From assembly GCF_002192415.1 (NCBI RefSeq), contig NZ_CP021780.1, positions 6,386,001 through 6,450,000 on the forward strand: DNA of 64,000 nt, written 5' to 3'. Position numbers and translations under genes: made by a program. The first letter of the stretch is position 1. The number at the start of each line of letters is the position of its first letter. Below the pieces are notes generated by a model. That model saw nothing but the letters and a program-made list of their open reading frames with translations, did not search any database and was not told the origin of the DNA. This document shows positions 28,353-32,171 of this stretch, one piece after another. Origin of the DNA: Paenibacillus donghaensis. Its GTDB lineage: Bacteria; Bacillota; Bacilli; Paenibacillales; Paenibacillaceae.

Positions 28353-28529
28353 CGGACTCAGGAGCACCTATTTGCTGTAAATAGACCGTTTTGCAGGATT
28401 AACGGACCCAGGAGCCTCTATACCACAAAAAAACCTTGGGTTAGGTCTTATTTTGACGACTTAGGGGCTATACGGTCCGTAAGACGTCAAAAGATCGCAG
28501 AAAGGAGGAAATAGGGGCTATACGGTCCG
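28353..28529. repeat. Array E: four TAGGGGCT...GTCCG units spaced 50/59/50 bp
   Basis: Units 3 and 4 are identical 18-mers TAGGGGCTATACGGTCCG at 28462-28479 and 28512-28529. Units 1 and 2 (28353-28370, 28403-28420) read CGGACNCAGGAGCNNCTA, i.e. the same motif inverted. Centres lie at 28361.5, 28411.5, 28470.5 and 28520.5, so the array is dyad-symmetric. A degenerate TAGATGC-type unit lies before it near 28278-28297. Confidence 0.85.
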
Positions 28530-28587
28530 CTAGAATGTGGGTTACCTTATAGTTCAAGGGCTTGGAGTCTTGCAGGGTCCTAAGTAG

Positions 28588-28717
28588 TAGACCGAACCTG
28601 CAACTAATTTCGAGTGAATTACCCCTGGAACGCTCAAACGTCCAAAATAGATGGGTATTCGCACTTATTTCCTCCAAAACAGAAAAAATCGTCTAATTAG
28701 GTGCGTTCTCGCAACTA
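28588..28717. repeat. Array C2: three TAGNTGC...GCAACTA units
   Basis: Units centred near 28597, 28657.5 and 28707.5 (spacing about 60 and 50 bp). The last, TAGGTGCG-TTCT-CGCAACTA flanked by CTAAT/AATT, is the best preserved. It follows array E directly. No gene is evident in 28192-28798. Confidence 0.8.
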
Positions 28718-28798
28718 ATTATTCAGCCTCCTAATTATGGAATAGAGTCTGTAGGGTTCTTAATATAAGGAGCCCTAAGCAATAACCTTATATTTCAC

Positions 28799-28848
28799 AA
28801 AAAAGACTGCCTTCCCGCATCACCCGATGCAGTGGAAGACAGTCTTTT
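28799..28848 (-). terminator. Terminator of the arginine cluster after argH
   Basis: On the minus strand AAAAGACTG...CAGTCTTTTTT with an inner GCATC/GATGC stem, just after argH. Confidence 0.9.
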
Positions 28849-28870
28849 CATATAGCAGGCAGTGCGTGGC

Positions 28871-30286
28871 CTAGTGGCCTGTGCCTCCATGCCGGACAAC
28901 CCACGCCTTGGCAACCAGCAGAGACTGCTCGGCACGCTCCAGCGCAGCCTTCACCTGCACGGTGGCTGTTCCGCCGTACACATTGCGGGCATCCACTACG
29001 GCTTCCGGCTGCAGCACGGCATAAATCTGCTCGTCGAACAGCTCCGAGAACTGCTTGAACTCATCCAGCGTCAGATCGAGCAGGAATTTGCGCTCGTTGA
29101 TGCAGTAGAGCACCGTTTTGCCGATCACCTCATGGGCTTGGCGGAACGGCAGACCTTTGCCGACCAGGAAGTCGGCGATATCGGTCGCGTTGGAGAAATC
29201 CGTGTTCACCGCCTCACGCATCCGCTGCTTGTTGACCTTCATCGTAGTAATCATCGGTGCAAACAGCTGCAGCGCTCCGGTCAGTGTGGCTACAGTGTCG
29301 AACATGCCTTCCTTATCTTCCTGCATATCTTTGTTGTAAGCCAGCGGCAGCGACTTCAGCACAGTCAGCAGTCCGATCAGGTTGCCGTAGACACGGCCGG
29401 TTTTGCCGCGCACCAGCTCGGGCACGTCCGGGTTCTTCTTCTGCGGCATAATGCTGCTGCCGGTGCAGAAGGCATCGTCCAGCTCTACGAAGCTGAACTC
29501 GGTGCTGCTCCACAGCACCAGCTCCTCGCTGAGCCGAGAAAGGTGGGTCATCACCAGCGAGGCGTTCGCGAGGAACTCGACGATGAAGTCACGGTCGCTG
29601 ACTGCATCGAGGCTGTTCTCGTAGACACTGTCGAAGCCGAGCAGCTCGGCTACATAATGACGGTCAATCGGGAACGTCGTGCCGGCCAGTGCCCCTGCCC
29701 CCAGCGGCAACACGTTGATCCGCTTGTAGCTATCGGTCAGGCGCTCCGCATCGCGGCGGAACATAGAGACATAAGCCAGCAGATGGTGAGCGAACAGAAT
29801 CGGCTGGGCACGCTGCAGATGCGTGTAGCCGGGAACAATCGTCTCCAGATTGTCCTTGGCCTGCTCAATCAGCGCCTCCTGCAGCTCATGCAGCAGAGCC
29901 ACCAGCTCCACTACACGATTACGCAGATAGAGATGCATATCGGTGGCTACCTGGTCATTACGGCTGCGGCCCGTATGCAGCTTGCCGCCAACCGGGCCTA
30001 CTTCGGCAATCAGATATTTCTCCAGATTCATATGAATGTCTTCATCGGCTACGGAGAATTCCACTTCACCCGCACGAACCTTGTCCAGCACCTTCTTCAG
30101 TCCGTCCTTAATCGTCTCCACATCGGCCTGCGGCAGGATGCCACACTTCCCCAGCATCGAGACATGGGCCAGACTGCCCTGCACATCCTCCTCCGCCAGC
30201 GCCTTATCGAAGCCGATCGAAGCCGTATATTCCTCCACCAGCTTGTTGGTTCCTTTGGTAAAACGTCCGCCCCACAGCTTGCTCAC
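28871..30286 (-). CDS. argH: Argininosuccinate lyase
   Basis: 471 residues. It splits argininosuccinate into arginine and fumarate, the last step of arginine synthesis. The N-terminus [18 protein letters not shown], the [14 protein letters not shown] stretch near residue 105 and the fumarase-superfamily signature [12 protein letters not shown] near 275 are all intact. Start is GTG 30286 with GGGGGAGTC upstream. It follows argG after 109 bp containing a strong hairpin. Confidence 0.97.
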
Positions 30287-30308
30287 CTCTTGACTCCCCC
30301 TCGTATAA

Positions 30309-30355
30309 CATCAGAGGGCCGCCCCTGTCCTGACGGGAGGAACGGCCTTCTGATG
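30309..30355 (-). other. 13-bp-stem hairpin between argG and argH
   Basis: CATCAGAGGGCCG / CGGCCTTCTGATG with one G-U pair and a 21-nt loop. No T run follows on the minus strand, so it may stabilise or process the argGH message rather than end it. Confidence 0.5.
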
Positions 30356-30395
30356 AATTGGTTTATATGTTCAGTTTGTATATTCAGTATCCTGC

Positions 30396-31643
30396 TTATT
30401 CGGCTGTTAGTTTCGCAGATTCGGCTACACCAGCCGACACCTTCAGGCGCAGCGCGTTCAGGCGGATGAAGCCGGTCGCATCGCCCTGGTCGTAGGCCTG
30501 GGTTGGATCAGCTTCCATCGTAGCAATATCCGGGTTGTACAGGCTGACCGGACTCTTCACTCCAGCGCCGATAATGTTGCCTTTGTACAGCTTTAGCCGT
30601 ACTGTACCTGTTACATTCTGCTGACTTTCGGTTACCAGTGCCTGCAGTGCAATCCGCTCAGGCGCGAACCAGAAGCCGTTATACACCAACGTGCTGTAAC
30701 GGGTAATCAGCGAGTCGCGCAGGTTCATCACTTCGCGGTCCATGGTAATGGACTCCATTTTGCGGTGAGCGCTGAACAGGATCGTGCCACCCGGCGTCTC
30801 ATATACGCCGCGGCTCTTCATGCCGACGAAACGGTTCTCCACCATGTCCACCCGGCCGATGCCGTGCTTGCCGCCCAGCTCATTCAGCTTCTCCATCACC
30901 TGAAGCGGCGTCAACGGCTCTCCGTTCAGGGCTACGCAATCGCCCTTCAGGAAGTCCAGCTCCAGATATTCCGCTTGATCCGGCGCATCCTCAGGAGCGT
31001 TGCTCAGCAGGAACATGCCTTTGTTCTCGTCTGCGCTTGGATCAAACCATGGATCCTCCAGCACGCCGCTCTCATAGCTGATGTGCAGCAGGTTGCGGTC
31101 CATCGAGTACGGCTTAGCCGCCGAGGCCTGGACCGGAATGCCGTTCGCTTCCGCGTAGGCGATCATCTCTGCGCGGCCCGGGAACTGGCTGCGGAATTCC
31201 TCCAGCCGCCAAGGAGCAATGACCTTGATGTTAGGCGCGAGCGCGGCCACGCCCAGCTCGAAGCGCACCTGGTCGTTGCCTTTGCCGGTTGCGCCGTGGG
31301 CAATCGCCGTTGCGCCTTCTGCGATGGCGATATCGACCATCCGCTTGGCGATCAGCGGACGTGCAATACTCGTGCCGAGCAGGTATTGCCCTTCATATAG
31401 CGCACCCGACTGGAACATCGGGTAGATGAAGTCATTCGCGAACTCATCGCGCAGGTCGTCGATGTAGACCTTCGACGCGCCGGTGGCGAGCGCTTTTTCC
31501 TCCAGACCGTCCAGCTCTTCCTTCTGGCCGATATCGGCCGTGAAAGCAATAATCTCCGCATCATAGGTTTCTTTCAGCCATTTGAGAATGACTGAGGTAT
31601 CCAGCCCGCCGGAATAGGCGAGTACAATCTTTTCTTTAGCCAT
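30396..31643 (-). CDS. argG: Argininosuccinate synthase
   Basis: 415 residues. It joins citrulline and aspartate using ATP. The N-terminal PP-loop [17 protein letters not shown] and the later [17 protein letters not shown] signature are complete. AAAGGAAG lies 10 bp before the ATG. Separated from argF by nearly 800 bp of repeats, so it may have its own promoter; none was clear by eye. Confidence 0.97.
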
Positions 31644-31711
31644 GGAGAAGCAACTTCCTTTCGTGGATCAGATTCATATGGGATGATGAAATCCCGAACG
31701 TTCAACGCAAA

Positions 31712-31893
31712 TAGATGCGAAAGTGCAACTAATTTCAGCTGAAACCTCTGTCAGGAGGTGATTAAGTGCGATATTGCAACTAATTTCAAGTAAATCAAGT
31801 ATTCTAAGCCCAAAATCGGGAATAAAGTGCCTTTTTGCAACTATTCGCTCCAAAACGGAAAAAATCAGCTAATTAGATGCACTATTGCAACTA
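31712..31893. repeat. Array C3: four TAGNTGC...GCAACTA units spaced 51/61/50 bp
   Basis: Units at 31712-31731, 31763-31782, 31824-31843 and 31874-31893, inverted relative to array C1. The segment between units 1 and 2 (AGCTGAAACCTCTGT...GGAGG) resembles the reverse complement of that between units 3 and 4 (AGCTGA...CCGTTTTGGAG), so the array is an overall dyad. Confidence 0.9.
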
Positions 31894-31982
31894 ATTCAGT
31901 GGCTCGGACTTAGGGAACCACTACAAAGTTAAATCTTCGATATTCTCATCATACGGAGGCCGCCTAAGCACTAACGAAGTGA

Positions 31983-32171
31983 TTTAGCTGTATAACGTAC
32001 ACTTAAATACTCCAGTTTGTACGCAGAATTCACTTTAGCTGTATTCTGTACAGTTAAAATCGCGCCAAGTCGCTCATACCGGCTTATTCCGTAATTATAG
32101 CTGTACAGAATACAATTAAAAGGTAAAACAGTCGCATTTCCGCCGGAATAACTGTACGAAATACAGTTAAG
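31983..32171. repeat. Array D: four CTGTA...TACAG palindromes spaced 51/62/51 bp
   Basis: Units of 25 bp start at 31983, 32034, 32096 and 32147. Unit 2 reads TTTAGCTGTATTCTGTACAG and ends TTAAA. The core of unit 3 (CTGTACAGAATAC) is the reverse complement of the core of unit 2, and unit 4 likewise mirrors unit 1. Same geometry as arrays C and E with a different palindrome. Confidence 0.9.

Follow-up and report, generated by a model that had tools for sequence, protein, structure and literature searches.

We analyzed a 64,000-bp stretch of the Paenibacillus donghaensis chromosome (the window), taken from a source genome of 8.54 Mb in a single contig, and found that its intergenic DNA contains arrays of four short palindromes whose centers are held on a frame of about 50/61/50 bp. 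The frame is kept while the palindrome motif changes, between array families (C, D, E and F, and loosely H) and between species, as a first-pass annotation of this DNA had noticed within the window. Such four-palindrome arrays with near-invariant spacing are real, and they also occur outside the window. Sequence comparison establishes that there is such a frame, that it is conserved from motif to motif and from species to species, that the palindromes have the character of half-sites, and that IS66-type transposable elements are linked to the arrays. The unit centers that we measured (Table 1) agree with those annotated earlier for the complete C arrays (50/61/51 and 51/61/50) and for the D array (51/62/51). 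For the E array, annotated as 50/59/50, the outer distances hold and the middle one measures 61 bp, other letters presumably having been taken as units. Two partial C arrays, given as about 60/50 and 62/50, were found as 61/50, where the 61 is taken from a split unit, and as 62/51. Our literature searches turned up no described family with this four-palindrome plan, as the annotation had also stated.

The frame is recovered with no motif fixed, both in intergenic DNA of the source genome and in relatives. We drew 60 unselected 20-kb pieces (1.2 Mb) from the source genome, which contain 364 intergenic stretches (166,330 bp), and scanned these for palindromicity at all (a,b,a) spacings on a 32 x 42 grid, with thresholds of 25 and 27. 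At 25, spacings (50,61) and (50,62) lead with seven matches each, followed by (51,51) with six and (50,55) with five; the mean is 0.13 per spacing, and a single shuffled set peaks at 1. At 27 the counts are tiny, with three matches for (51,51) and one for (50,61). The (51,51) matches are 51-bp tandem arrays. A motif-free score of mutual identity among all eight palindrome arms, applied to 182 of the 364 stretches, gave 60 matches versus 12 for a single shuffled set; its commonest class was an even center with (50,61) (eight matches), and its modes are those of the palindromicity scan. Direct 8-mer distances in intergenic DNA of the first 20 unselected samples peak at 50, 51, 61, 111, 112 and 162 bp, and further at 21, 102, 122, 148 and 153 bp, several peaks stemming from tandem arrays. 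Strict detection of perfect palindromes yielded distances of 50 (four) and 51 (two) only, none at 61, and was discarded as too weak an array finder. Palindromes of other types (TTTATGGGATATATCCC; ATCAGAGGCATAAAGGCCTCTGAT) were also noted in tandem, with a 51-bp step and conserved spacers, at L021:5603-5830 and L022:11209-11700; the step is that of an outer pair in the four-unit frame, and these arrays resemble those in Cohnella. Direct repeats of 61 bp, beginning GGCGGCGTTAC, lie near a C array at L022:5618-5780.

The rigidity of the frame was assessed by family, using matrices for C, D and F units without a spacing rule on source-genome loci of at least 5 kb, part of which had been selected for D matches or IS66-type ends. 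The matrices located 180 C, 83 D and 64 F distinct units. Pairs less than 180 bp apart lie almost solely at 50/51, 61, 111/112 and 161-163 bp in C, at 51, 62, 113 and 164 bp in D, and at 50/51, 60-62, 110-112 and 160-163 bp in F. Exceptions, one count each, are 62, 100, 113, 120, 122, 123, 171, 173 and 174 bp for C and 52, 53, 110, 114 and 165 bp for D. Four-unit blocks measure 50-51/61/50-51 in C, 51/62/51 in D, 50-51/60-62/50-51 in F and 50/61/50 in E. The C units form 30 clusters of four (28 of them 51/61/50 or 50/61/51), one of five, nine of three and six of two, with 16 singles; the D units form 14 clusters of four (13 with 51/62/51), one of three and three of two, with 18 singles; and the F units form 14 clusters of four, with eight singles. 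All 26 E clusters of four show 50/61/50, apparently as young near-copies at partly selected loci, beside nine clusters of three, two of two and 24 singles. Most of 10 C singles inspected sit in broken arrays, and most D and F singles score low. Seventeen of the 42 C, D and F singles score at least 16.5, and most of these again lie in broken arrays. One lone C unit is found between divergent open reading frames (ORFs), beside a decayed element end, and one lone D unit 334 bp before an ORF; nothing among the 17 pointed to a regulator gene. The unselected 1.2-Mb sample holds 31 C, 13 F and six D arrays with at least three units, which extrapolates to roughly 220, 90 and 40 arrays per genome; 4 of 31, 4 of 13 and 2 of 6, respectively, fall outside our rough intergenic calls.

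We compared eight other species of the genus (five 20-kb pieces each) by the eight-arm score. Matches, with shuffled counts in brackets, numbered 4 (2) in G011, 3 (2) in G009, 6 (1) in G022, 11 (2) in G014, 5 (3) in G001, 14 (4) in G007, 8 (3) in G012 and 5 (1) in G010. A 50-51/60-62 frame is the best match in G011, G009, G022, G014 and G007, and is present below the top in G012 and G001. The motifs differ between species of the genus (TTAGTTGGA, TTTAGGGA, CTAACGAAA, TTAGCGTG). Single-unit matches in five relatives (exact, or with at most one mismatch for a second G011 list) behave alike: among the units listed, 141 of 144 pairs within 600 bp lie at 50-52, 61-63, 112-114 or 163-165 bp. Every pair among the listed matches is on frame in G093 (49 units), G011 (25 and 50) and G016 (19), and G009 (29 units) has one off-frame pair, at 470 bp. 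The C pattern has 232 sites in the source genome and none in 80 other genomes of the genus. The D pattern is matched in 50 of 81 genomes (at least 12 times in 40; maximum 187; controls 0-2) and a TARNTGGA pattern in 39 of 81 (at least seven times in 14; maximum 210; controls 0-1).

Pairwise identity among 12 D arrays is 0.77 in the units, 0.38 in the spacers and 0.26 in the flanks, so that a D array is bounded by the outer arm of its first unit and that of its fourth. The D spacers are nearly random in sequence, yet their length is kept. The corresponding values are 0.84, 0.66 and 0.38 for 28 C arrays and 0.82, 0.52 and 0.39 for five, partly non-independent, F arrays. Rigid spacing might simply reflect the youth of functionless copies made from a few masters, as the near-identical appearance of E copies and the 0.66 identity of C spacers would allow. 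We consider this very unlikely: it is hard to hold for D, whose almost randomized spacers go with 13 of 14 arrays at 51/62/51, and several species share the frame with different motifs. Four orthologous arrays in G009 and G011 are mostly 93-97% identical across the compared blocks, with one gap column within an array. They differ at 16 of 256 arm sites, 3 of 80 core sites and 49 of 402 spacer sites, the arms changing at about half the rate of the spacers (Fisher p = 0.015).

The first-pass annotation had taken the constant geometry to suggest compensatory change of the kind that maintains folded RNAs or cruciforms, with a protein-binding frame as a third option. Arms match within a unit at 0.66-0.84 in C (0.785 mean between units), 0.77-0.83 in D (0.829) and 0.62-0.80 in F (0.732), and none of the three families has excess covariation of arms within units. 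Some mismatches are even fixed: across 30 arrays, positions 4-5 of C unit 2 are Watson-Crick matches in 3% and 0% of cases. Because arms within a palindrome match no better than arms of different palindromes, do not covary in excess and carry fixed mismatches, the signal consists of eight half-sites and not of hairpins, and RNA or cruciform formation is unsupported. The window has no Rfam match at gathering thresholds; a single chance-level match in the region reaches E 0.057 and 25 bits versus a cut-off of 101. A structured RNA or cruciform would suit palindromic units in intergenic DNA, with a 3' gene end nearest to 19 of 27 C arrays, but it is largely refuted by the arm comparison, and we give it hardly any chance. 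The protein-binding frame is our favored option of the three, and the earlier interpretation as a whole is partly supported. A half-site of about TANNTG plus one or two family-specific bases is common to C, D and the relatives' TARNTGGA family; the F half-site begins with AA, and E and H units each combine two unlike half-sites. The outer spacers of both complete C arrays had been described as related by inversion, which we could not reproduce (best identity 0.36 and 0.32; shuffled mean 0.34). By family, one outer spacer matches the inverted other at 0.392 versus 0.342 shuffled in C, 0.389 versus 0.339 in D and 0.343 versus 0.346 in F, and the halves of the D central spacer match under inversion at 0.426 versus 0.347. 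The annotated view of each array as one large imperfect dyad holds for the units, which mainly carry it (mirrored identity 0.71-0.77), and for the spacers as a weak trace at most.

We thus regard the arrays as non-coding intergenic elements of about 186 bp, the selected content of which would be eight half-sites paired as four dyads, each with a short core, on a rigid frame. Frame distances of about 50.5/61/50.5 bp for even cores and 51/62/51 bp for odd cores come close to 5, 6 and 5 helical turns; they approximate whole turns if the helical repeat is 10.1-10.3 bp, and less well if it is 10.5. Because eight half-sites in four dyads are conserved on such a frame, we favor an oligomeric DNA-binding protein. 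We infer an assembly of four dimers on each array, most likely with two-fold symmetry and bound to the four dyads along a single DNA face; shifts in its specificity would change the half-sites of an array family together and leave the frame in place. An oligomeric protein reading half-sites on a rigid frame, together with the IS66 link, is our best explanation as a whole, and we think it has an even chance of being correct. More tentatively, and with somewhat more doubt than confidence, we propose a frame-defined class of elements: a four-dimer complex would wrap about 186 bp at dozens to hundreds of sites, its specificity would have diversified within and between Paenibacillaceae species with 50/61/50 fixed, and IS66 would land on the frame and carry it. 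Oligomeric regulators such as those at NrdR boxes, Lac-type looping repressors and Lrp octamers use helically phased multi-operator palindromes. Our arrays similarly present dyads on one helix face at integral turns; they differ in being many per genome, not promoter-bound and variable in motif on a constant frame. An Lrp-like octamer was considered and set aside, as its dimer spacing would be too short. If the arrays are protein-bound, they would represent a large nucleoprotein system, with no description in the literature searched, in many genomes of one genus, and comparison of the families would be a natural experiment on DNA specificity changing at many sites at once. The frame would also account for nested IS66-type insertions, with landing sites predictable from sequence.

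Several observations weigh against an oligomeric protein on a selected frame. No binding protein was found. Part of the C and F rigidity may be recent descent, since their spacers are still 0.66 and 0.52 identical, and four of the 14 F arrays form one tandem cluster. Family H is looser, its nine four-unit clusters showing six spacing patterns, one of them 51/61/41. One of the four G009/G011 pairs is reversed, with changes at 5 of 64 arm and 3 of 101 spacer sites. G010 gave no frame in 100 kb by the motif-free eight-arm score, and G051 (11 units, among the listed matches) has one array-like pair off frame (67, 118). Finally, the 27 intergenic C arrays are scarce in divergent regions (two) and common in convergent ones (10, with 15 co-directional), as tolerated insertions would be; the sampled intergenic bp are 23% divergent, 18% convergent and 59% co-directional.

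Judged by ends and duplications, IS66-type miniature elements carry C, E and H arrays as cargo in the source genome; elements with H arrays measure about 280 bp, those with E about 300 and 420 bp, and those with C about 320 bp. These elements have the terminal inverted repeat of a complete copy and the 8-bp duplication expected of IS66-type miniature inverted-repeat transposable elements. Because miniature forms carry C, E or H arrays, the arrays spread and nest by transposition. The first-pass annotation had held that its reading would fall if the arrays were decayed copies of one known mobile element; this applies in part, C, E and H arrays being cargo of such elements, whereas eight D and eight F/G arrays aligned with 120-bp flanks have no IS66-type ends around them, and D and F keep the same frame. 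Ends GGTTACTNCTTAGG occur 258 times exactly in the source genome and never in a reversed-pattern control. Elements with ends GTTACTACTTAGG mostly insert at the center of C palindromes. After end pairs below 7/8 had been dropped, 47 pairs (some nested or sharing an end) show a target duplication of at least 7/8 bp, 30 of them exact; C palindromes hold 35 of the pairs, and the other 12, which include at least three C elements, lie elsewhere. Both outer and inner C units are used. Three full transposase copies (L070-L072; 509, 501 and 501 amino acids) have the same ends as the miniatures, all within C palindromes. A fourth full-length copy (L069), which differs from these three, yielded no ends, and the remaining two matches are fragmentary. 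The IS66-type proteins match Pfam DDE_Tnp_IS66, zf-IS66 and DUF6444, and the best-matching named relatives of the transposase are mostly from Paenibacillus. An initial reading of the target duplication as 6 bp, and as a possible tyrosine recombinase core, was overturned by the 8-bp duplication and the IS66 ends. At L052:945-2674 an H element is interrupted by an IS256/Mutator-type transposase gene, and at L049:2319-4514 an IS110-type transposase gene lies between two IS66-type ends.

The IS66 family is characterized by 8-bp target duplications, and we take the single-ORF type to be the group named ISBst12. Our elements share the transposase family, the inverted ends and the 8-bp duplication; they differ in a strong preference for array palindromes, in the source genome and some relatives, and in that a single clade among the relatives duplicates 9 bp, in odd-centered palindromes. 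Of 80 IS66 loci in relatives, 16 were examined; nine lie within arrays and seven do not. Insertions hit array palindromes at 4/4 loci examined in P. faecis (50/61/50 arrays), 4/4 in Cohnella (51-bp series) and 1/1 in P. eucommiae (51/62/51). Duplications of 8 bp accompany even cores, and those of 9 bp odd cores. It is conceivable that the half-sites are read by the IS66-family transposase itself and that nested transposition maintains the arrays as platforms with several target sites, given the insertions within array palindromes in the source genome and these three relatives and a duplication length that tracks core parity. We think this improbable. The seven loci outside arrays count against it, and the frame is seemingly needless for insertion because outer and inner units are both used. 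D arrays persist here, though the three copies with identified ends are all in C. Since the users of 9-bp duplications form one clade, parity need only be a symmetry preference and is not decisive.

Table 1. Arrays and associated IS66-type features in the 64,000-bp window
Feature	Position	Strand	Units or remarks	Unit centers	Spacing (bp)
E array	28349..28533	.	28349-28372, 28399-28422, 28460-28483, 28510-28533	28360.5, 28410.5, 28471.5, 28521.5	50/61/50
IS66-type miniature element with E array as cargo	28292..28592 (301 bp)	.	ends GTTACTACTTAAG and CTAAGTAGTAGAC		
Left target duplication, 8 bp	28284..28291	.	CGAAACTG; center of split C palindrome		
Right target duplication	28593..28600	.	CGAACCTG; 7/8 identical; right arm of split C unit adjoins		
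Units 3 and 4 of E-interrupted C array	28646..28719	.	28646-28669, 28696-28719; unit 2 split by E element	28657.5, 28707.5	50; 61 from right half of split unit 2 to next unit (reckoned from letters)
C array	31710..31895	.	31710-31733, 31761-31784, 31822-31845, 31872-31895	31721.5, 31772.5, 31833.5, 31883.5	51/61/50
D array (odd-centered core)	31984..32170	.	31984-32006, 32035-32057, 32097-32119, 32148-32170	31995, 32046, 32108, 32159	51/62/51
C array, beyond the first annotated span (28353..32171)	14077..14262	.		14088.5, 14138.5, 14199.5, 14250.5	50/61/51
Partial C array	41047..41183	.	three units above matrix threshold	41058.5, 41120.5, 41171.5	62/51

We also compared the arrays with repetitive extragenic palindromic (REP) sequences, bacterial interspersed mosaic elements (BIMEs) and REPINs with their REP-associated tyrosine transposases (RAYTs). 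The papers cited here describe these as short extragenic palindromic repeats in many copies, regularly spaced, in alternating orientations and in families that vary by species; most lie where the neighboring genes are co-directional or convergent (PMC2817692, PMC3116915, PMC3733652). The arrays likewise occur in many extragenic copies in alternating orientation. They differ in having four units on a fixed frame, which several motif families share, in that the arms of C, D and F do not covary as in a hairpin, and in lacking a RAYT association for C, D and F in the source genome. This last point rests on five Y1_Tnp matches (one broken) in that genome; a scan of about 1.5 kb on each side of them for units of these three families gave none. 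RAYT was rejected as the driver of C, D and F in this genome. REP sequences also serve as insertion sequence targets (PMC1525189). Both cases have insertion sequences choosing palindromic intergenic repeats, but here the IS66-type miniatures carry arrays as cargo too and nest in their own kind.

The arrays could still be selfish elements of the REPIN or BIME kind, some transposase recognizing one of its ends in the half-sites of units 1-2 and the other in those of units 3-4, so that the transposition complex and not a host function constrains the frame; we consider this rather unlikely. It would explain why D edges are sharp, with flanks at chance identity, why no homology was seen outside eight D and eight F/G arrays save for two tandem L024 copies, and why four-unit blocks dominate the clusters. 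An array between argG and argF, seen by eye in G009 and G011 and absent from G015, G022 and G001, points the same way. Against it, no target duplication is visible by eye at the D and F edges, and we came across no gene lying between unit pairs, a systematic search not having been made. The Y1 transposases of the source genome have no C, D or F units nearby, and a transposon need not fix 61-62 bp between its ends. In the first 100 kb, G009 and G011 gave no clean empty sites, the differences listed being mostly assembly gaps; one G009-only array lies in about 480 bp of extra sequence, which is not a clean insertion.

In the window, the arrays at 31.7-32.2 kb sit between argG and argF, and those at 28.3-28.7 kb have argH on their right. 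A 45-bp tandem repeat (2.9 copies, 32287-32417) is found between the D array and argF. Another small dispersed element, the second kind noted here, is bounded by GAACTTAAGAATG and, about 72 bp away, the inverse of this sequence; 24 of 307 loci hold the exact motif, in most cases in this paired form. Its window copy (41242-41326) has one mismatch per end, and it is also found in L012, L022, L024, L025, L028, L053 (inside an H element), L066, L070, L193 and others. Short tandem repeats lie at 46801-46929 (12 bp), 26159-26282 (36 bp) and 12856-12943 (17 bp).

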